Shown here: piece by piece, positions 5,208 to 45,859 of the stretch
Position numbering within the stretch: position 1 is the stretch's first letter
How the letters are laid out: each line of letters starts with the position of its first letter
NCBI GenBank assembly: GCA_963930775.1
Contig: OZ005692.1
Span: forward strand, 8,418,135-8,482,134
Reading direction: 5' to 3'
DNA from: Cliona cf. orientalis
Lineage: Eukaryota > Porifera > Demospongiae > Clionaida > Clionaidae
Length of the DNA: 64,000 nucleotides
Notes under the pieces: model-generated
Told to the model about the DNA's origin: nothing
The model's input: the letters and a program-made list of their open reading frames with translations, nothing else
Database searches by the model: none
Position numbers and translations under genes: made by a program

Positions 5208-7345
5208 ATGCTTCGGATAGTCATTGCCCTAACTGTTCTAAAAATTGCCGCATGTGATACTTTCTACATCATTCCAAACACTGGAGGTGCAGGCAGCTGT
5301 CCAGTATCAGCCGGAAGATGTTATACTCTCCATGACTATGCCAGTAACCCAATGCTCACATCCAACCTCACCTTGGAGCTGCTGCCTGGGAACCACAGCC
5401 TCAATACAACTCTAGCACCGAATTCCAGTGTAGTGAACTTCACCATGGTGTCCATTAATACTATAATCGTTTGTGGTCGCAGTCCAAACCGAGGTTCCAT
5501 CACATTTGAAGAAGTGCAGAATGTAAATATTGTTGGGAAGATAAACTTTGTGGATTGCTACACCAGAGTCAGGGCTGCAAGTAATTTAACTGTTGAAGGT
5601 AGTACATATCAAGGTGGAGACTCTGTGGGGTTTCAGGTGTCCGAAGTCACTTATGCTCGTTTTCAGCAGACTTCATTCATCAGCGTCCGTGACAGTGCTT
5701 TAGCTATTACTAGATCTACGTACCGTTACTGTTGAAAGATGTGATTTTATTGGGAATGGTCACACGCTTCGTCATGGAGGTGCAATTGTTACTACTCAGT
5801 CTCGTACCTTGACTGTCATCAATAGCAAGTTTATTGGTAACAGTGCGGGAATGGAAGGAGGTGGTATATACTCCATGAGCAGTCGTGTCACTATTAGAGG
5901 GTGCAATTTTACACGTAATGTGGCCAGACTAAAGGGAGGTGCAGTATCTATACAGGAATCGGGTGGATCAATACTGTATAGTAATTTCACGGAGAATACT
6001 GCTGGTGATCCAACTAATGGAGGTGGAACTGCTGGTGCTGTTCATAATCAAGCAGTCTTTGATTCTACAGCTTTGGAAATTCATTATTCAACTTTTGTTA
6101 ATAATGCAGCTGGTGGTAATGGAGGGGCAGTGTTTGTACGTACGCGAAGGCACTTTGACGTCACAAATTCCATCTTCCGGAATAATTCAGCTTATCGAGG
6201 TGGTGCAATTGACTTGTATAAAAATCATAATGTTATCACTCTATCAATGATCAAATGCTCATTCAGTGACAACAGTGCTGTTCTTAAACCGATCTATTCC
6301 AATCCCAGCCCCAGAGGGTGGTGCAGTTCAAATAAGAGGAGGAATACGCTGCGTCAGAAGCAATTTTACCAACAATTCCGCCGAATACTATGGAGGAGTG
6401 GCCTACATGTATGATGATTCAAATGATTTCTATTCAGAGCATTGTACTTTCACCAACAATTCCGTCAGTGTTGGAAGTGGAGGCGTTATTTATGGCGTCA
6501 GAAGAGAAACTATTGCTCTGATTATCGACAGCACTTTCATTCGTAACAGTGCCCCACTCTGCGGAGTTGCTGATATGCTCACTATTACTGATGGATACCA
6601 CAATAACTTCACTGCTATTTCCAGCCTTTTCTCACATAATAGTGCTACAGAAACTATCAGTGATGTAGGAGGACTTGGTGACATAGCCTGTGTTAGAAAT
6701 GGTTCTATCACTGTCATCTGTAGTACCTTTGCCGATAACATAGCAGCTCAAAATGCTGGTGTCTTTTATGCAAATGAAAGTACTCTTACTGTTTCCCAGT
6801 GTTTGTTCTCAAGAAACATCGCAGTAAATAATGGAGGAGTAATGTACACTAATCATTCCTCCCATAGTGTTTCAGACACTGTTTTTAATTCCAACTCTGC
6901 TGAAAATAATGGTGGGGTTCTCTTCATTAAAGAAGCCAACGGACAAGGTACCATTCACAATTGTATATTTCGGCAGAACAGTGCAGGTGAAGGTGGAGCA
7001 CTATTTGTCGATTCGAGCACTTTTGCCATAACTCAAACTAACTTTCTGAGCAATACAGCCACGACTACTGCTAGCGGCGTTGCCAGCTCTTGCAATAGCC
7101 TATTCCTATCAATTGATGGTGCTACTCAGCATCTTCAGAGAACATTTATCCCTCCCTGCATGATGTTTAACGGAGACATAAGTAACTTTAATGTGACAGT
7201 ATTGATAACTTTCAATTGCCCCCTTGGTAGCCATTTCCAACCAAAATTGGAACCAAATAAATACAATTCCCATTGTGCTCAGGTAGTTTCTTCAGCTCAA
7301 ACCATACACATCGGTGTGCAAGTCAAATTTCTACGTTCTCCATAG
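5208..7345 (+). pseudogene. Beta-helix protein copy 2, two frameshifts and altered C-terminus
   Basis: This paralogue starts with the same signal peptide and repeats as copies 1 and 3, but the frame is broken twice. Near 5,717 the sequence is 2 bases shorter than copy 1, ending the first frame at 5,735. The frame resumes at about 5,740 and is lost again at about 6,312, where an extra base in a G-rich stretch (CCCAGAGGG against CCCAGGGG) shifts it. The third frame runs to 7,345. Homology to copies 1 and 3 also stops at about 7,229, and the last 38 codons are unrelated. The parts between lesions show no extra stops, so decay is recent. Assembly error is possible for the G-run change but less likely for both lesions plus the replaced end. 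Confidence 0.8.
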
Positions 7346-11712: not shown

Positions 11713-11811
11713 TAGTTGAAGGAACTCACAAATTCAGGGCTGCCTAATTACGTACCTTGCTACCAAATCATAATTATTTGTAATTGCTTAAGCATAGACC
11801 AAGAAGTAGCT

Positions 11812-14040
11812 ATGCTTCGGATAATCATTACCCTAGCTATTCTGAAAATCGCCGCATGTGATACTTTCTACATCATTCCAAACACTGGAGGTGCAGGCAG
11901 CTGTCCAGTATCAGCCGGAAGATGTTATACTCTCCACGACTATGCCAGCAACCCAATGCTCACATCCAACCTCACCTTGGAGCTGCTGCCTGGGAACCAC
12001 AGCCTCAATACAACCCTAGCACTGAATTCCAGTGTTGTGAACTTCACCATGGTGTCCATTAGTACTATAGTCGTTTGTGGTCGCAGTCCTAACAGAGGTT
12101 CCATCACATTTGAAGCAGTGCAGAATGTAAATATTGTTGGGCAGATAAAATTTGTGGATTGCTACACTAGAGTCAGGGCTGCAAGTAATTTAACTGTTGA
12201 AGGTAGTACATATCAAGGTGGAGACTCTGTGGGGTTTCAGGTGTCCGAAGTCACTTATGCTCGTATTCAGCAAACTTCATTCATCACCATTCGTGGCAGT
12301 GCTATAGCTATTACTGGCTCTACTGTTACTGTTGAAAACTGCGATTTTATTGGAAACGGTCACACGCTTCGTCATGGAGGTGCAATTGTTATTACTCAAT
12401 CTCGTATCTTGACTGTCATCAATAGCAAGTTTATTGGTAACAGTGCAGGAGTGGAAGGAGGTGGTATATACTCCATGAGCAGTCGTGTCGATATTAGAGG
12501 GTGCAATTTCACACGTAACGTGGCTAGCGAACTAGGAGGTGCAGTGTCCATACAGGAATCGGGTGGATCAATACTGTACAGTAATTTCATGGAGAATACT
12601 GCTGGTGATCCAACTAATGGAGGTGGAACTGCTGGTGCTGTGCTCAATCAAGCATTCTTTGATTCTACAGCTTTGGAAATTCATTATTCGACTTTTGTTA
12701 ATAATGCAGCTGGTGGTAATGGAGGGGCAGTGTTCGTACGTACGCGAAGGCACTTTGACGTCACAAATTCCATCTTCCGGAATAATTCAGCTTATCGAGG
12801 TGGTGCAATTGACTTGTATAAAAATCATCACGTCATCATTCTATCGGTAATCAACTGCTCATTCAGTGACAACAGTGCAGTTCTTAAACCGGTCTATTCC
12901 AATCCCAGCCCCAGGGGTGGTGCAGTTCAAATAAGAGGAGGAATACGCTGCGTCGGAAGCAATTTTACCAACAATTCAGCCGAGTACTATGGAGGAGTGG
13001 CCTACATGTATGATAATTCAAATGATTTCTATTCAGAGCAGTGTACTTTCACCAACAATTCAGTCAGTGTCGGAAGTGGAGGCGTTATTTATGGCGTCAG
13101 AAGAGAAACTATTGCTCTGATTATCGACAGCACTTTCACTCGTAATAGTGCCCCACTCTGTGGAGTTGCTGATATGCTCACTATTACTGATGGATACCAC
13201 AATAACTTCACTGCTATTTCCAGCCTTTTCTCGCATAACAGTGCTACAGACAATACCAGTGATGTAGGAGGACTTGGTGGCATAGCCTGTGTTAGAAATG
13301 GTTCTATCACTGCCATCTGTAGTACCTTTACCGATAACATAGCAGCTCAAAATGCTGGCATCTTTTATGCAAACGAAAGTACTCTTACCGTTTCCCAGAG
13401 TTTGTTCTCAAGAAACATCGCAGTAAATAATGGAGGAGTAATGTACACTAATCATTCCTCCCATAGTATTTCAGACACCGTTTTTAATTCCAACTCTGCT
13501 GAAAATAATGGTGGGGTTCTCTTCACTAGAGAAGCCAACGGACAAGGTACCATTCACAATTGTCTATTTCGGCAGAACAGTGCAGGTGAAGGTGGAGCAC
13601 TGTTCGTCGATGCGAGCATTTTTGCCGTAACTCAAACTAACTTTCTGAGCAATACAGCCACAATTAGTGCTAGCGGTGTTGCCAGCTCTTGCAATAGCCT
13701 GTTCCTATCAATTGATGGTGCTATTCAGTATCTTACGAGAACATTTATTCCTCCCTGCATGATGTTTAACGGAGACATAAGTAACTTTAATGTATCGATA
13801 ACTTTCAATTGCCCCCTAGGAGAGCCAGACGATCCATCAGTGATAACTCCACCTCAAGGAATTTCTCTTCCGATCGCTTATGACGTTGCAAGCATAAGTC
13901 AGGGAGTGGGGTCAGATGCTACATGCCCAACAGAGCTACTGCGACAGGAAACTCGAGAAAATGCAAACAATGATATCCAAGGGATTATTCGAAATGTTGT
14001 TGCACCACTCTTGCAAGCAAATGAACCACGCAATCGCTAG
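11812..14040 (+). CDS. Secreted beta-helix (POMP-repeat-like) protein, copy 3, intact
   Basis: This is the only uninterrupted member of the tandem family, with 742 residues. An upstream in-frame ATG at 11,716 would add 32 residues before the signal peptide. I chose 11,812 because it directly precedes the signal sequence (MLRIIITLAILKIAAC) and aligns with copies 1 and 2. Residues from about 130 to 640 consist of FxxN...GG(A/V)(I/V/L) repeats typical of right-handed beta-helix, POMP-like proteins, with many N-glycosylation sequons. The last 70 residues or so lack the repeat and end without a transmembrane segment or GPI-like tail, so the product is predicted to be secreted. Known POMP-repeat proteins serve as adhesins or surface proteins; the role here is unknown. 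The gene is intronless as read. The 5' flank is shared with copies 1 and 2 for only about 220 bases. Confidence 0.82.
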   Translation: MLRIIITLAILKIAACDTFYIIPNTGGAGSCPVSAGRCYTLHDYASNPMLTSNLTLELLPGNHSLNTTLALNSSVVNFTMVSISTIVVCGRSPNRGSITFEAVQNVNIVGQIKFVDCYTRVRAASNLTVEGSTYQGGDSVGFQVSEVTYARIQQTSFITIRGSAIAITGSTVTVENCDFIGNGHTLRHGGAIVITQSRILTVINSKFIGNSAGVEGGGIYSMSSRVDIRGCNFTRNVASELGGAVSIQESGGSILYSNFMENTAGDPTNGGGTAGAVLNQAFFDSTALEIHYSTFVNNAAGGNGGAVFVRTRRHFDVTNSIFRNNSAYRGGAIDLYKNHHVIILSVINCSFSDNSAVLKPVYSNPSPRGGAVQIRGGIRCVGSNFTNNSAEYYGGVAYMYDNSNDFYSEQCTFTNNSVSVGSGGVIYGVRRETIALIIDSTFTRNSAPLCGVADMLTITDGYHNNFTAISSLFSHNSATDNTSDVGGLGGIACVRNGSITAICSTFTDNIAAQNAGIFYANESTLTVSQSLFSRNIAVNNGGVMYTNHSSHSISDTVFNSNSAENNGGVLFTREANGQGTIHNCLFRQNSAGEGGALFVDASIFAVTQTNFLSNTATISASGVASSCNSLFLSIDGAIQYLTRTFIPPCMMFNGDISNFNVSITFNCPLGEPDDPSVITPPQGISLPIAYDVASISQGVGSDATCPTELLRQETRENANNDIQGIIRNVVAPLLQANEPRNR

Positions 14041-36628: not shown

Positions 36629-39551
36629 ATGGCTGAGAGAGCAACATTCACAGGCTTTGATCCTTACAAGCTAAATGAAATTAGAGTGACAGACAGAGAG
36701 CTGGGACATGGCTCCTATGCCACTGTTCTAGAACTGGAGTACATGGGACTGAAATGTGCTGGCAAGAAGATCCACGAACTACTTCTGCGTCAGGGAGATA
36801 CCAGCTATACTGTTCGTAGATTTGAAGAAGAATGTCGTCTACTTAGTCAGGTACGCCACCCTAACATTGTCCAGTTTCTGGGAGTCTATTTCCAGCAAGG
36901 AGTGCGAGTACCCATCCTAATCATGGAGTTTCTTCCCATCAACCTCACCTCCTGCATTGAGCAATATGGTGTTCTCCCAAAGGAGATCAACTACTCCATC
37001 CTTCATGATGTGGCTCTGGGTTTGTGCTACCTCCACAGTCAAACTCCTCCCATCATTCACCGAGATCTCTCTTCCAACAATGTCCTCCTCACCCCCAACA
37101 TGACGGCCAAGATCTCTGATCTGGGTGTGGCCAGAATCCTCAACCTAACTCCTCTACAGGTCAGTCGCATGACTGGGACTCCTGGTACCCCTGCCTACAT
37201 GCCACCAGAGGTGATGGTAGCCAATCCTAAGTATGATACCAGTGTTGATGAGTTTTCCTATGATGTTTTGATGATCCACATTTTCAGTGGTCGGTGGCCA
37301 GAGCCACAGGTTGGACCAAATCGCATCGAGCAAGGAAGGTTGATTCCAGTGTCTGAAGCTGAACGACGTGAGGTATTTCTACAAGCCATTAGAAGTGATA
37401 ATGCTCCGATGATTCTAATTCACAGATGTATCAGTAATGATTCCAACATAAGACCTCCTGCCAGTGAGATAGCTGACCGGATTGGAGAGATAGTATCACA
37501 GTTTCCTGCTTCATTTGCCAACCGACTGGAAATGCTTGGGCATATTAAAGTGGTTGAACATGAGAAAGGAGCCTTAATTTTGGAGGGGGAGAGGAAGAAT
37601 CAGGCAATTCGACAAAAAGAGAACCAGATATCACTACTCTCAGGAAAGATTCAAGTTAAGGAGCAACAAGCTATGACAGAAATTGACCAACTGAAACTAG
37701 CCCAATCCAATGAAATGGAGCTACTCCACCTAAAACTCAGAGATTTGAATACACAGTGGCAACTAATGAAAGCTGAAAATGAAGCTGAAATAGCTGAACT
37801 CTCATCCAAGGTTGAAGCTCTACAGACTCAAGTGGAGAATGATAGCAGGGTTCTAAATCAAGAAAGAGAGCAGCATAAGACGTGGCTAGTAGAAGAAAAA
37901 GAACGACACGAAGGTCAATTAAGAAAAGAAAGGAAAGAGTTTGACGCACTGATTGCAAACGAAAAAGAAACAAATGGGCGGTTGATGGTCTATAACCATG
38001 ATCTACAATCTGATTTATCAATAGCACAATCAGAAATAGCCAGACTTCGAGGTACTAACTTAATGCTGCAATCTGACGTAACGCAGAAGAATACTACTAT
38101 TCAAAAGAATAATGCCTCTATCAAACGAAAGGACTCAGAAATTGAAGCAAAGAGCAGAGCTCTAGAAGAGAAAGATGCAACTATCTCAGTAATGACTAAG
38201 CAGATCACCAAAACCAGAGAGTATATAGCTACTAATAAACAGGTTAGTGTACATGACGTTTATTATGTTATTTCTCATATTTTCCGATGGCATCTATAAG
38301 CAACATGCTTGACAGCTTTATCTTTCATGTGTCTGAATATCTTAATAAATTAAAATAAATATATAATTGAGACTATTAGGCTAGCTAAGAGCCCACATGG
38401 ATAAAAGCTGGGGCAAATCATACTATGCATTTCTGAACTCAATAATTTATACGTGGTAACATGGCACATTCCCAGTTTAAGAGCATGCATGTGCCATAAC
38501 TCTTAGAATGGCCTCACTATGCAGGGTAATAGGCATTGAAGTTTCAGCATGAAAATCAAAAAGCTGGGAAAAATAATGCTTTTATTTGATTTGAATGTAA
38601 CAACAGGGTTTACAAGCTTGTATCAGCTGGAAGCAGTGTGCAGATCTGCCAGTAAAATTTCGTGATGGGACCACTGCAATAGTCAACAGCAAAGTTTATT
38701 GCGGAGGAGTAGTGACTAATAATGATAGTGAGTATATTGTATACTGCTATGACCCATCACAAGACAAATGGACCACTCTACCACCACTTCCAGTCAGATA
38801 TTTTGGTCTGGGTCAAGTCGAGAGCAAGCTAGTGGCTGTAGGAGGGAATAAGAGAGGTGACGATCAAGGAACTGACGAAGTTTACACATTTGATGAGCGA
38901 TCTCGTAAGTGGAAGCAGACCATTCCACCAATGCCAACGGCTAGATGGTCTGTAAGCGTCTTGACTCTCCAATCAGCACTTGTGGTGGCAGGTGGAGCAT
39001 CTAGTTACACAAATGTTGTCGAGATCTTCAAACCAGACACATCATTGTGGTACAGGACCGACCCATTACCTAGACCTTGTTGTGATGCATCGCTGATGGC
39101 TATTGGCAACACGTGCTATGCACTAGGAGGATACAGACACCCAACGTACCTCAATCAAGCACTCTATGCATCAATTGACGATCTTCTTGGCAATGCTGTA
39201 CCTGCCAATAGCAAACAACAATCCACCCAAAGAAGTAGCAGTGACACTCAGTCTTCTTGGAGGGCCCTACCGAACACTCCAACCTATGAACCAGCTGCAG
39301 TAATGCTAGCAGGGAACCTTCTTGCTGTAGGAGGTAAGGAAACATCCTATGGTGGTGACGATAAGAAGGAGATCTACATGTACTCTCGCTCCACCAACTC
39401 CTGGATCTACGTCGGTGATCTACCAGCTCCACGGTTAACTACTGCGGTTGCTGTTTTGTCGCCAACCAAATTCCTGATGATTGGAGGCTGGAGTCAAGGT
39501 GCAAGACTGAACACCATGTACATGGGTACACTTACATGCTCTGTGTCATGA
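36629..39551 (+). CDS. Protein kinase + coiled coil + Kelch-repeat protein 1
   Basis: Exon 1 is 36,629-38,242 and exon 2 is 38,607-39,551. The junction is phase 0 and gives 852 residues. Residues about 20-285 form a protein kinase domain of tyrosine-kinase-like (TKL) appearance: Gly loop LGHGSYATV, lysine at AGKK (K46), HRDLSSNN (144-151), DLG in place of DFG (164-166), and PPE in place of APE. Key catalytic residues are all present, so activity is likely. Residues about 305-538 are rich in E/K/Q heptads, a long coiled coil for dimerisation. Exon 2 supplies about five or six Kelch repeats (VAVGG, VVAGG, YALGG, LAVGG, LMIGG motifs), presumably a beta-propeller for substrate binding. The exon boundary falls exactly between coiled coil and propeller. 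Substrates are unknown. The next gene is a tandem paralogue. Confidence 0.88.
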
Positions 39552-39940
39552 GCATGTAACAAAAGAGAACGTTCAATAGCACAATGTCATGCAGATATAT
39601 ACAATAATGCAGTTAATTATTATTAATAATAATTGCTTGTGCCACCATTCTAATTAGCAACATTTCAAAGTACATACTGGTATATTATATCAAGCTAGAT
39701 CACTATTAGCTACAATAATCATGCCATGCAGGGAAGGTTGACATATTCTGAATTAACATACTACAATCAAGCAATGTGTCATAATAATATTATTATTATT
39801 ATGCAAAACAATAGTTTCCATAAATGGAATGTCATGATCATGTGATTTATTGCTCAGAAGCTGCAGTCTATATTAGCTATGATCATCCAGTGACTGTTGT
39901 ATTATAATATTATTATGACTTGTATGTTATCTAAAGTTTC
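39552..39940. other. Short intergenic spacer between the two kinase-Kelch genes
   Basis: AT-rich spacer with TAATAATATTATTATT runs and no gene. The promoter of the second gene must be here. Confidence 0.5.
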
Positions 39941-42900
39941 ATGGATGAGAGAAGAATGTTCTCGGGACTAGAGCCTTACAAGCTGACCAGTATTAGAATG
40001 ACAGATCGAAAGCTGGGACGTGGCTCCTATGCCACTGTTCTAGAGGTGGAGTACAAGGGACTGAAATGTGCAGGGAAGAAAATCCACGAAGATCTGCAAG
40101 GTCAGCTGGGAGGTGGCTTAACTTATGCTGTTAACCGGTTTGAAACAGAGTGTCGTCTACTTAATCAAATGCGCCACCCCAACATTGTTCAGTTTTTGGG
40201 GGTCTTCTTTCAACAGGAGGAGCAAATACCCATCCTAGTGATGGAATTTCTCCCCATCAATCTCACCATCTGCATTGATAAATATGGCATTCTCCCAAAG
40301 GAGATCAGCTACTCCATCCTTCATGATGTGGCTCTGGGCTTGTGCTACCTCCACAGTCAAACTCCTCTCATCATTCACCGAGATCTCTCTTCCAACAATG
40401 TCCTCCTCACCCCCAACATGACAGCCAAGATCTCTGATCTAGGTGTGGCCAGAATTCTTAACCTAACCCCTCTACAGGTTAGTCGCATGACTGGGACTCC
40501 TGGCACCCCTGCCTACATGCCACCAGAGGTGATGGTAGCCAATCCTAAGTATGATACCAGTATTGATGAGTTCTCCTATGGTATTTTGATGATCCACATG
40601 TTCAGTGGTCAGTGGCCAGAGCCACAGGTTGGACCAAATCACATGGAGCAAGGAAAGCTGATTCCAGTATCTGAAGCTGAACGACGAGAATCTTTCCTTC
40701 AGATCATTGGAAAGGATCACCCCCTTATGAATCTCATTCTAAAATGCCTTGACAATGACCCTAAAAATAGAGGTGGTTCTAGCGAAATCGTTGAAATCTT
40801 GGCAAAATTGACATCACAGTTTCCAGCCTCCTTTGCTAATCGCTTGGATATGCTAAGCCGTATTGAGGCAGATAAGGAGAAACTTCAACAGGAAGAGCAA
40901 CAAGTTCTTAGTTGGAAAAATGAAGCTGAAATGAAAAGTGAGGAAATACATCGACTGAATATGGCGCATTCTAGTGAAATTGAACAATTGAAATTAAAGT
41001 TGAGAGCTACAGTATCACAAAATGAACTATTCGTTGAAGAGACTGAAGCTGAACTAGAAGAACTAAGGAGCAAAGTTGCACTTTATGAAGCTCAAATGGA
41101 GAATAAAGCCACAATTGAACATGAAACAGATCAATTCGATATACGGGTACAAGAGACAGAAGAAAAGGAAACGTTTGATGTGTCAAAAGCTCAGGAAAAT
41201 GGAGAACCGGCAGTGAGACTGAGCCGAATGTTTACGAGGAAAATTAAATCTTTGCAATCTGAGGTATCGAAAACACGGACAAAAGCACATGCTTTACAGC
41301 ATAGACTGGAGGCTGATATTGCAATAAGAGATGGAGCTATAAGGAGGAACCAGACTGAGCTAAAAGCCCGGGCTAGAGTTCTACAAGAAAAGGATTCTAT
41401 CATTTTAGGAATGGATGAGCAGCTTACTAAAGCAAGAGAACATCTTGCCATTAAAAAGCAGGTATGACTTCAATATACACATGGGGGTAACGTATGTCAG
41501 TGATGTCACACTATTATACATGGGGGTAATGTGAAGGGAAAACACAACCTTCCTGTATTATGCACATGTATAATATAGTAGCTATTACAGAATACGAGCG
41601 CTATTGCTATAGTCATAATAATTATACTGGATTGCAGAACCCTCACCGCTACATTAGCTATGCATTACTCATGCCGCGAGTCGTGCACATGTATAGCATG
41701 GCTCACTGTAGGTGTATGCAGTATTGAACTACATACTCTGCACCTGAACAGAGTTCTGGTACTGAGTCAAGTGCATGATCTGGGAGTAGGAGGAAGCCAC
41801 CTGGCTATTATGTCACTATATAAACTGAAAGCCTCTATGACATACCGTATGGCGGGTAATTTTCGTGGAAAGTCCGAAAGGTCGCTCAAAATTAATTATT
41901 GTGGTTTTAAATTTTCATGACAGCAACCAGTTCAGGGACATGGCACTACACAAGCGATGATGTAATCAGTACATGTGCTCAATCTCGCTCGCGATCTTCC
42001 TTTTTGAATTACTAAGCCATACCTACAGAGAGAATATTAGTGTTGAAGATGCTATCAGCTGGATGACAGTGGCTACTGTTGACTGACGATATTTGTGGCC
42101 ACAGCCATCATCATTGACTCGCATAACCTTATCACCAACTTTTGTGGATGGGAAAAATTTTGTATTTATCAAGTCAACCACAAAATTAGCACCCCACGAA
42201 ACTTGATTACCTGCCATGCAGTACCTAAACTCTGAATTATGTACTGAGAGCCACTGTCTGTTTAACTTTACGCATTAATAACTGACCAGTGAAGCACAGA
42301 AATTATGGCAATCAGTCATGTAGCTGAGGTAGGTGCCATGTCATAGACTGGCAACAGTTGCACGATACTATAAGATGCTTACCACTTAGTACAGGGGGGT
42401 TCGGACGGATGGATGGATGGACGGACAAAAAATCGCCTAATGATTACAGCAACCCTCTGCCTATGCTTTGCGGCAAGACTTAATTATGGAAATTATGATA
42501 TTTGAAACTCCTACATTTACAATGTTATGCATCTATAATACAGGTCCTAAGGGCTAACATAACATGGAATGAGTGTGCTCCACTACCAGCCAGACTGTAT
42601 GGAGGTACCTCCACGGCAATCAATGGGAAAGTCTACTGTTCAGGAGGAGAAGCTGTCACTGAAGATAACAACTACTATGTCTACTGTTATGACCTATCAC
42701 TAGATCAGTGGACGACACTACCCCCACCTCCCTTAAAGTGGTTTAGTTTGGGTCAAATCAATGGAAAGCTTGTGGCCATCGGGGGGCAGGAGAATTGCAC
42801 GAGTAAGGGAACAAAGAAATCGGAAAAAAGTCTAAAGGGATGCACGTACGATGAAAAAGAGCAAAAGTGGAAACGGACGATTCCGCCACTGCCAACTGCT

Positions 42901-43515
42901 AGGAATTCTCCACGAGTTTTGAGCCTCCAGTCAGCACTGGTTGTGGCAGGTGGCTATACACAGTCTAAAAGTTGCGCAGGTACTGTGGAGATCTTCAAAT
43001 CAGATACAGGACAATGGTACACTGCTGATCCTCTGCCGGCTGAATCCACTGCAATCTCCATCGTTGCTATTGACAATACATGCTACGTACTGGGAACATT
43101 AGAGTGTTCAACGTATCTCAACCGAACCTATTATGCCTCGCTTGATGACCTCCTTCTAAACGCTTTACCAGCTAATCAGACAAGACACAGTCCTTCCAAT
43201 GAGACTAAGCATCAATCAGCTTGGAATTCGCTACCTAACACCCCTACATATCGACCAGCTGCGGCCATGCTAGCTGGTAATCTTCTAGCTATCGGAGGAA
43301 ATGAAACCGATAACTACAAATCAGCAGAGAGGAAAGAGATTCATATTTATTCTCCCTCTACAAACTCCTGGATCTACATCAGTGATCTACCGGCACCGCG
43401 ATCAAGAGCTATAGTTGCATCTTTGTCAGCAACAGAAATATTGGTGATGGGAGGCCGGAGTGGTGGTAGTAAAGTGAACACAGTGTACAAGGGAACGCTA
43501 CAACTTGAAGTGTAA
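39941..43515 (+). CDS. Protein kinase + coiled coil + Kelch-repeat protein 2
   Basis: Exon 1 is 39,941-41,461 and exon 2 is 42,544-43,515, joined in phase 0 for 830 residues. The layout matches gene 1. The kinase domain has LGRGSYATV, AGKK (K46), HRDLSSNN (146-153), DLG (166-168) and PPE. A coiled coil covers about 310-507. The Kelch propeller has VYCSGG, VAIGG, VVAGG, LAIGG and LVMGG motifs. DNA in the kinase core (40,320-40,560) is almost identical to gene 1, while coiled coil and propeller have diverged strongly. The intron is longer than in gene 1 because it holds a copy of dispersed repeat A. The same function class is expected, with different partners chosen by the propeller (inference). 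Confidence 0.88.
41640..42482 (+). mobile_element. Dispersed repeat A, copy in kinase-Kelch 2 intron
   Basis: Recognisable landmarks are GAACCCTCACCGCTA at the left, GCACCTGAACAGAGTTC, CACTATATAAACTGAAAGCC, CAGTCATGTAGCTGAGGTAG and, at the right, GGACGGACAAAAAATCGCC followed by CTTTGCGG. The same ordered landmarks occur at 53,540-53,672 plus 55,312-55,535 and, inverted, at 63,545-64,000. Fragments lie at about 10,311-10,424 and 10,938-11,005. No transposase was seen. Confidence 0.75.
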
Positions 43516-44319: not shown

Positions 44320-44533
44320 GTTTGAATTCACTCAGTGGAGTCACAAAGATTCTCGCAATCATTCTTTGACTTTATCATCAGCTAATACATTAATTTTAGT
44401 GGAGACTGTCTAAGAATTTCTTGAGCTCGGTGTCTATAGATGACTATAATATTATATGAAATAGACTATAATAGTTACAGTGCCTGATTGCCTACTTGGA
44501 TACAGCATTTTCTAACTTGAGTCTCCAGTAAAG

Positions 44534-45859
44534 ATGTCGAAGAAGGAGGCCTCTGTTGCAAAACCAATTGGTGATAAATTAAAAAAATATGTTGCGAAAG
44601 AAGAAGTGAAAGAGATCTATGCCGCCTTGGAAGTAGGTGCAAAAGTTCTCGATACAACAAATAACACAATCAAATTTTTGTCCAAGCCCGAGGTCAAGAA
44701 GGCACTTGTGAAGGTTTCTCCTGATTTGGCAGAAGTTGTTGGTAAAGCTACATGCATTGCAAAAGCATTAGGTCCTGCTGGAATGGTTCTTGGAAAAGGA
44801 GTTGACCTTTTTGTTGCTATGGGTCTTGCTCAAGATGCTACAATGGCCAAACTTGACGAAATTAGTAGCCAGATTGATGCACTGAGGAGCGAAGTGGAGC
44901 AAGGCTTTCAGAATTTGAAGGCATTCATAAAAAGCACGGTAGAGCTGAATCGATTCCTTCAAACCTATGATACAATGCTCACCAACGTTCTAAAGTACGA
45001 GAAACTCATTTCGAGTCCTGAGAAAAATACGCCCGATCTCTTTATGCGAAAAATGAAATTAATGGTGGATACATATTCACCGAGCCAGATTGTTCATGAT
45101 CTTGAGAAAATGCATAACCTGATTGCTGGTAAGACTGGAATGGGTGATCCATTATTTGAAGTACTTTCTCGAGAAGTAAATGCATATAAAGGAAAGGATG
45201 TTGATCAATTCATAGCAAATCTCATTCTCAAGTTCCAGACGGTCATTGGTGTGGAAATGAGGGCTGTACGCATGTTACGATCTTTTGTTGCCTTTACTGA
45301 GGAAGATGTAGCATTTTTGGACTCCATCGAATCCATCTTCAGAAATATTGCTGACCAACGGAGAGAATATGATCCTGGTACGAAGTTTGAGTGGTATCTG
45401 AAGTTTATGGCGACTGGTGGTGTGGTGAAAATGAAATCAACGAAGTGGCCAGAATACAATTTAACAATGTCACATTTCGAAGAAAAGCGATTGAGTGGTT
45501 ATGCTAAAGAGATTGATGAAAATGGTGTCTTCATTATCACACCTCATTCTGAAGGAGGGAAGTTCCTGATCTCAACTAAAGAGCACCCAAAACGCTACTT
45601 GTACATGGAAAACGGAGTTTTTACCTCCAACGTTGTTCAGTGGGTAACTGACGAGGATCCAGGTCCCCAAGGTCATTGGAATTTTATCATCAAAAATTTT
45701 CAAGCTCGTTCATTCACTCTGACTACATGTAAGTGGCCAGAGTGGTTCGTGTACATGACAACCAATGTATTGCAGCGTACACTGGATGGAAGTTATGGCA
45801 TCGTTGGAGAAAAAGGAGATTGTGATAAGCAAGGAGAATATACGTTCGATTTTGTTTAA
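44534..45859 (+). CDS. Intronless protein with helical N-domain and C-terminal three-fold (beta-trefoil-like) repeat
   Basis: 441 residues, no signal peptide, no intron. I do not recognise the family. Residues about 1-285 are predicted mostly helical: Lys-rich start, amphipathic helices around 60-150, and one Gly/Ala-rich hydrophobic stretch at about 77-95 (ALGPAGMVLGKGVDLFVAM). Residues 297-342, 343-392 and 393-441 form three repeats of about 45-50 residues with the pattern (K/S)FxLxTxxWPxxxLxM...D...WxF. The motifs STKWPEYNLTM, STKEHPKRYLYM and TCKWPEWFVYM align. Three such repeats are the signature of a beta-trefoil, often a carbohydrate- or lipid-binding module. A helical domain joined to a trefoil could be a membrane-active lectin or a defence protein, but this is speculative. 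Lack of a signal peptide argues for a cytosolic protein or unconventional secretion. Confidence 0.75.
   Translation: MSKKEASVAKPIGDKLKKYVAKEEVKEIYAALEVGAKVLDTTNNTIKFLSKPEVKKALVKVSPDLAEVVGKATCIAKALGPAGMVLGKGVDLFVAMGLAQDATMAKLDEISSQIDALRSEVEQGFQNLKAFIKSTVELNRFLQTYDTMLTNVLKYEKLISSPEKNTPDLFMRKMKLMVDTYSPSQIVHDLEKMHNLIAGKTGMGDPLFEVLSREVNAYKGKDVDQFIANLILKFQTVIGVEMRAVRMLRSFVAFTEEDVAFLDSIESIFRNIADQRREYDPGTKFEWYLKFMATGGVVKMKSTKWPEYNLTMSHFEEKRLSGYAKEIDENGVFIITPHSEGGKFLISTKEHPKRYLYMENGVFTSNVVQWVTDEDPGPQGHWNFIIKNFQARSFTLTTCKWPEWFVYMTTNVLQRTLDGSYGIVGEKGDCDKQGEYTFDFV

Follow-up and report, generated by a model that had tools for sequence, protein, structure and literature searches.

A 64,000-nucleotide stretch of chromosome 4 of the sponge Cliona cf. 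orientalis (contig OZ005692.1, also called C4, positions 8,418,135 to 8,482,134; hereafter the window) carries two tandem genes, designated A and B, each encoding a protein kinase domain, a long predicted coiled coil and a Kelch propeller. Both are members of a large family in which the kinase is conserved and one face of the propeller is hypervariable, and we favor, at a probability of roughly 0.6, the reading that A and B form part of a germline repertoire of kinases that act in recognition inside the cell, with the top face of the Kelch propeller as the sensor, probably for microbes, symbionts or non-self. A catalytic end that stays conserved, joined by a long helix to a sensor that changes fastest at its ligand-facing residues, points to recognition followed by kinase signaling. 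The family looks like an apparently undescribed set of recognition receptors, as no description of a kinase-Kelch family, or of a sponge kinase or Kelch expansion of this kind, was found in targeted searches of open-access papers.

The Kelch propeller and its fast-changing sites

Exon 2 of both genes matches the Pfam family Kelch_1 above its cut-off (E 7.6e-24 for gene A and 7.9e-21 for gene B), and the exon of gene A is predicted by AlphaFold2 to fold as a six-bladed Kelch propeller domain with a mean predicted local distance difference test score (pLDDT) of 89. The best solved structures retrieved with Foldseek for this model were NS1-BP, designed Kelch propellers, Keap1 and KLHL proteins, at template modeling scores of about 0.7.

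Selection on the kinase and Kelch ends was estimated with our own codon-likelihood script, which fits models M0, M1a and M2a together with a FUBAR-like grid on a FastTree topology. The kinase set comprised 25 of the 31 best copies (six with stops were dropped) and the Kelch set 28 of the 31 best exons, after removal of two with stops and one identical copy. The ratio of replacement to synonymous change (omega) is 0.32 for the kinase and 0.725 for the Kelch exon. Comparison of M1a with M2a for the Kelch exon gives twice the log-likelihood difference (2dlnL) as 421-434, with ∼10% of sites at an omega near 5, while null simulations on the Kelch tree (n = 8) range from 0 to 11.5. Separate halves of the exon, each with its own tree, give 2dlnL values of 212 and 207, and gap-free columns only give 326. 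Replacement change exceeds synonymous change (posterior >0.9) at 42 of 304 Kelch codons versus 4 of 305 kinase codons, and synonymous change exceeds replacement at the same threshold at 136 of 304 Kelch and 168 of 305 kinase codons. A replicate comes from a second set of kinase-Kelch loci, group 2, whose Kelch exons are 32-38% identical to that of gene A; six of its 88 Kelch matches yield an omega of 1.01, a 2dlnL of 103 and 16 fast sites, with a fitted fast class whose omega of 12 is the maximum of the grid in a set of six sequences.

With loop borders set by hand from the strands of the AlphaFold2 Kelch model, the fast sites of group 1, to which A and B belong, occupy 20 of 57 positions in BC loops, 10 of 56 in DA loops, 1 of 14 in AB loops, 3 of 44 in CD loops and 8 of 133 in strands. 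When the strands are split mid-way, 37 of 191 positions in the top half of the propeller are fast versus 5 of 113 in the bottom half (Fisher p 2.2e-4), and the pooled pairwise omega is 0.72 and 0.31, respectively. Among the fastest residues (gene A exon-2 numbering) are 20, 37, 65, 81, 86, 114, 131, 136, 159, 178, 181, 244, 248, 278 and 295. Fast sites recur blade after blade in the DA loop (20, 65, 114, 159, 228 and 278), directly after the GG motif (37, 81, 131, 176, 244 and 295, with 176 found by M2a only) and at or near the sixth residue following it (86, 136, 181, 248 and 300).

Aligned with Keap1 (5wfl_A), the DA sites correspond to Ser508 and Ser555, the GG+1 sites to Phe478, Tyr525 and Tyr572, and the GG+6 sites to Arg483/530 and Phe577, in a numbering that we take to be anchored on Tyr525 and with which the residue spacing is consistent. 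The Keap1 residues aligned with fast sites, of which 530 is written Gly530, are inhibitor contacts in the Nrf2 pocket (PMC6891428). Thirteen of 16 pocket-aligned positions are fast by either method versus 34 of 288 positions elsewhere (p 2.4e-9), a p-value that is descriptive, as are the others of its kind, because the 16 positions were defined after the fast sites had been seen; the corresponding counts are 11 and 31 by the grid alone and 12 and 13 by M2a alone. The replacement rate at the pocket positions is 4.13, versus 0.69 elsewhere. In group 2, the fast sites include GG+1 positions 88 and 295, GG+6 positions 93 and 300 and, by eye, DA-loop positions 25, 26, 121, 169, 231, 277 and 278; 15 of the 16 were placed by eye in BC or DA loops and the remaining one (241) in an AB loop. 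The same propeller surface is diversifying in both groups. This top face is called the putative binding face from the comparison with Keap1 alone, and, read in that way, its hypervariability lends strong support to the original prediction that the propeller selects ligands or substrates, a proposal that had overlooked the diversifying selection on that face.

The conserved kinase, the predicted coiled coil and probable cellular location

The kinase domains of A and B are assigned by their sequences to the eukaryotic protein kinase superfamily (Pfam Pkinase, PF00069; E 4.8e-34 and 9.5e-40, both over the cut-off). Lys46 of the CAGKK motif, the alpha-C Glu, the HRD motif, the Asn, the Asp of DLG and the Glu of PPE are invariant in all 25 stop-free copies, where the alpha-C Glu could lie in either of two adjacent columns (Glu66, kept in 25 of 25, and Glu67, kept in 23). 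In the glycine-rich loop, every one of these copies has Ala in place of the third Gly, and gene A is the only one with an Asp at the conserved Gly of subdomain IX (codon 212). The claim made initially for A and B, of a full catalytic set consisting of the AGKK Lys, HRD and the DLG Asp, is thus borne out in both genes and invariant across the 25 copies, but the substitution at the subdomain IX Gly of gene A had been missed. The closest PDB sequence matches of the family profile were WNK3 first and CTR1 second, and those of gene A alone began with CTR1; the kinase group is split between TKL (CTR1) and WNK3 in these PDB matches only, and TKL is a candidate label.

In the AlphaFold2 model of exon 1 (10-row alignment), the kinase lobes have block mean pLDDT values below 50, and the coiled coil of gene A is modeled as one 242-residue helix with block means of 66-88 for residues 311-530 and lower values at both ends. 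The heptad count backs a coiled coil weakly (z 2.4 for A and 1.7 for B). No 19-residue window above a Kyte-Doolittle value of 1.6 was found in the kinase-side frame of A, B and 18 others among 21 genes surveyed, three of these negatives being read only up to an early stop. Because neither has a membrane segment, the A and B proteins are probably cytosolic and, as judged from sequence, are not membrane-spanning receptor kinases.

Family size and genomic distribution

Genome-wide matches were counted over 216.8 Mb in 149 contigs; the published assembly measures 217.17 Mb in 307 scaffolds (PMC12639293). The kinase domain of gene A matches at least 127 places and its Kelch exon at least 128 (group 1), these and the other match counts being lower bounds, as the search scored part of its candidates. 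Kinase and Kelch matches were paired when they lay on the same strand less than 6.5 kb apart, with the Kelch match 3' of the kinase and no other kinase match between them, and by this rule 87 of the 127 group-1 kinase matches are joined to 86 distinct Kelch places. Chromosome 4 holds 42 of the 87 paired kinase matches, with 34 in a cluster at 10.30-10.86 Mb. Of the 83 kinase matches in group 2, 66 are joined to 66 Kelch places that do not overlap those of group 1, and the one locus that was read has coiled-coil and kinase exons upstream of the Kelch exon. The total is at least 152 kinase-then-Kelch loci (86 + 66), broken ones included, which were paired by position and not individually annotated. 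The two genes first noticed in the window are real, but the scale of the family had escaped notice, A and B being two of these loci. What is observed is a set of many paralogues whose replacement changes are concentrated on the putative binding face, as in a diversifying repertoire.

Identical Kelch exons lie ∼18 kb apart at C4:10406374-10407291 and C4:10387052-10387969, a pair for which very recent duplication, conversion and a retained haplotype are alternative explanations.

Gene layout and the joining of kinase and Kelch

The layout of A and B is given in Table 1. Their reading frames, the GT and AG ends of the introns and the Pfam matches agree with the two-exon structure originally described, in which a kinase and coiled coil precede the Kelch propeller and the exons are joined in phase 0. 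The predicted acceptors are AACAACAG/GGT in gene A, with exon 2 beginning at 38607, and ATACAG/GTC in gene B, with exon 2 beginning at 42544; additional in-frame AG acceptors lie 27-30 bases downstream in both genes, and the exact junctions are predictions. The two proteins are 55% identical end to end.

Table 1. Features of genes A and B, in window positions.
Feature	Position	Strand	Basis
Gene A exon 1, kinase and long helical coiled coil, 538 codons	36629..38242	+	Open frame from ATG 36629, donor CAG/GTTAGT, Pfam
Gene A kinase domain, residues 22-282	36692..37474	+	Pfam PF00069, catalytic residues checked
Gene A coiled coil, predicted single helix, residues 295-536	37511..38236	+	AlphaFold2/DSSP, weak heptad signal
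Gene A predicted intron, phase 0, GT-AG	38243..38606	+	Splice-site prediction from sequence
Gene A exon 2, predicted six-bladed Kelch propeller with hypervariable top face	38607..39551	+	Pfam, AlphaFold2, Foldseek, selection analysis
Gene B exon 1, kinase and predicted coiled coil, 507 codons	39941..41461	+	Open frame from ATG 39941, donor CAG/GTATGA, Pfam
Gene B kinase domain	40001..40795	+	Pfam PF00069 E 9.5e-40
Gene B predicted intron, phase 0, GT-AG	41462..42543	+	Splice-site prediction from sequence
Gene B exon 2, predicted Kelch propeller	42544..43515	+	Pfam

A simple rule combining a CAG or AAG donor with a phase-0 acceptor is satisfied in 13 of 21 whole genes; the other eight are locus L069, one gene with a phase-2 pair only, three with early stops in the kinase frame and three with no pair. 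This shortfall, together with junctions predicted from sequence, is what could be said for the kinase and Kelch parts being separate adjacent genes divided by spurious introns, an explanation that we consider extremely improbable. It is contradicted by two relatives that have no intron ahead of the Kelch part: L069 (C2) encodes a whole kinase and a Kelch domain inside one uninterrupted 757-aa frame, and L073 (C13) a kinase C-lobe, a helical linker and a Kelch domain inside one 634-aa frame. The kinase part within this L073 frame falls below the Pfam cut-off (E 2.8e-5), and the remainder of the kinase forms a separate upstream frame that is over it. These one-frame genes make the fusion independent of predicted splicing, and they back the single kinase-coiled coil-Kelch protein proposed from the window. 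Assembly by exon joining, proposed at first from the phase-0 boundary, is a possible origin for which intron phase is no test. Separate genes would also be at odds with the same-strand kinase-to-Kelch order at 86 + 66 loci and with the correlation of kinase and Kelch distances across 15 genes (r 0.81), a correlation that in addition speaks against the two ends having been freely shuffled within group 1.

Alternative explanations of the variation

Several observations weigh against a diversifying recognition repertoire. The sequences compared are paralogues, not alleles or orthologues, and to the retrospective choice of pocket positions and the positional pairing of loci is added a raised synonymous rate at the pocket (1.98 versus 1.03 elsewhere), such that the estimates may be too high owing to gene conversion or to multi-base changes in clusters. 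The kinase has a 2dlnL of 45-47 (4-5% of sites at an omega near 3), which exceeds the null range, and it therefore also contains a few fast sites. Pairwise omega pooled over whole loops, without a tree, is below 1 (BC 0.87 and DA 0.70). Among the 31 best exons of each kind, in-frame stops occur in 6 for the kinase and in 2 for the Kelch part, and the Kelch group picked as a negative control turned out to have kinase exons of its own and became group 2. L069 is the sole gene of the 21 with a 19-residue hydrophobic window (Kyte-Doolittle 2.43), located between kinase and Kelch. Finally, 81 haplotypic duplications were removed from the published assembly (PMC12639293), and some family copies could be retained haplotypes.

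Part of this evidence, namely the raised synonymous rate at fast codons, the stops (8 of 62 exons), the one pair of identical Kelch exons, the pooled loop omega below 1 and the excess of the conserved kinase over the null, would fit an artefactual origin of most of the replacement excess, through relaxed constraint, misalignment or gene conversion between tandem duplicates that are decaying. We regard such an origin as rather improbable: null simulations peak at 11.5, the signal persists in gap-free columns and in separate halves, the pattern of fast sites is periodic across the six blades and repeated in group 2, and the blade cores and catalytic residues are conserved.

Alternatively, these kinases may signal on the sponge's own substrates, the propeller docking host proteins and its diversity reflecting a division of labor among paralogues without a role in immunity or in recognizing others. 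Human Kelch proteins mostly bind host degron peptides, and peptide complexes of KLHL3 and KLHL20 are among the structural matches, both of which speak for such docking. It is hard to reconcile, however, with an omega of ∼5 in group 1, or of 12 in group 2 (six sequences, top of the grid), at the same face, and more than 150 loci are poorly explained by division of labor alone; we consider it unlikely.

Proposed mechanism and comparison with known systems

Under the favored reading of a germline recognition repertoire, each Kelch propeller would use its top face to recognize one particular peptide or protein surface, the coiled coil would bring molecules together, perhaps by the dimerization first suggested, and the conserved kinase would phosphorylate itself and a common downstream pathway. 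New specificities would keep arising as genes are duplicated and lost and as the binding face undergoes diversifying selection, with the signaling end staying constant. As ligands, microbial proteins, proteins of the algal symbiont or those of other sponge individuals would be the likeliest. Symbiodiniaceae symbiont sequence is present in the sequenced Cliona sample (PMC12639293).

Among known proteins, the KLHL or BTB-Kelch family (Keap1, KLHL20, NS1-BP) shares the six-bladed Kelch propeller, and the fast sites of the sponge proteins align with the ligand pocket of Keap1. Unlike that family, the sponge proteins have an N-terminal kinase and coiled coil and a large tandem expansion, and no BTB or BACK domain was found in Pfam scans of A, B, L069 and L073. 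TKL-type kinases (plant CTR1, TNNI3K, RIPK2 and Roco4) and WNK share the catalytic motifs and provide the best PDB sequence matches, and to our knowledge none of them carries a Kelch propeller on the C-terminal side of its kinase domain. Plant NLRs and receptor kinases, fungal WD40 NLRs and the F-box and MATH adaptors of nematodes and plants are expanded families with a diversifying binding domain and a fixed output. The sponge family resembles them in its many germline copies, tandem clusters, conserved output and diversifying sites on the binding face, and differs in that its output is a protein kinase, its sensor a Kelch propeller and its host an animal. More tentatively, and at somewhat less than even odds, a basal animal with more than 100 germline Kelch-kinases would possess a cytosolic recognition arsenal, with the N-terminal kinase as common output and an exchangeable sensor, as a counterpart of plant and fungal intracellular receptors. 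Such an arsenal may serve to keep watch on microbes, on the dinoflagellate symbiont or on sponge tissue that is non-self.

How self, symbionts and microbes are discriminated without adaptive immunity is an open question, and sponges carry dense microbial communities. WD40 and LRR domains serve as germline-diversified recognition domains elsewhere; if the proposed reading is true, the Kelch propeller is also able to act in this way. A fixed kinase joined to a Kelch propeller that diversifies at known ligand-pocket positions is a concrete and testable candidate, for which sequences, predicted contacts and a public RNA-seq run (ERR13669944; PMC12639293) are at hand. In the literature on other organisms, the Kelch motif appears in a figure legend (Fig. 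3) among the domains of Eph-like and TKL kinases of choanoflagellates and filastereans, a likeness drawn from the legend only, and section 5 of that paper, unlike the present case, describes no expansion (PMC6993872). In both of two other sponges challenged with microbes, a "Kelch motif containing gene," given without domain detail, subsequently decreases (PMC6208332).

Other uses of the same kinase type

Forty of the 127 group-1 kinase matches have no paired Kelch match, and 10 of the 40 are followed by a tyrosine-kinase match downstream, in a count that covered 23 such matches, taken from a set of 155. The idea that all 40 lack a Kelch domain proved partly wrong when four loci were read: L073 has a diverged in-frame Kelch domain, whereas L072 and L074 have none within the stretch read. 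L071 continues from the kinase to a hydrophobic segment and an SH2 segment that narrowly clears the Pfam cut-off (21.7 versus 21.0 bits). L074 has HLN where HRD is expected, and a P-loop-like motif seen there by eye received no Pfam support. One frame in L006, judged by eye, opens with the last part of such a kinase and goes on to three SH3 domains; SH2 and a tyrosine kinase are encoded by the frame that follows. Apparent genes combining the same kinase type with three or four SH3 domains, SH2 and a tyrosine kinase are located at L006:1471-3746 (minus strand) and in L008 (C10:1.13-1.145 Mb). Within one genome, the predicted products place this kinase type next to, or in one chain with, SH3-SH2-tyrosine-kinase modules, an SH2 segment and a putatively membrane-spanning Kelch protein.

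A tree built from 33 kinases unites the 25 stop-free copies with a support of 0.906 and makes sisters of A and B. Next to branch are the kinases linked to SH2/SH3, with L069 and L073, which are Kelch-linked, lying outside these, an order that suggests that the C-terminal end of this kinase type has been exchanged at least once. Scanning with the kinase alignment found two loci of bacterial metagenome-assembled genomes in genome_contigs, at 30-33% identity, and no match in viral_contigs. Ten kinase-domain matches lie in one 2925-aa open frame at G000:C17:2316562-2324877 (minus strand), a possible poly-kinase protein. L070 (C4:8613900-8619100) contains kinase-like frames with HGD, HGN, HQN and HQS replacing HRD, some with SH3, which are probably pseudokinase pairs.

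Neighboring features in the window

Just 3' of gene B, an uninterrupted 447-aa frame at 44516-45859 has no Pfam match at 0.001. Open frames at 622-2562, 5704-7345 and 11716-14040 score above the Pfam cut-off for the Chlamydia polymorphic membrane protein repeat, and two of the three also match the right-handed beta helix.

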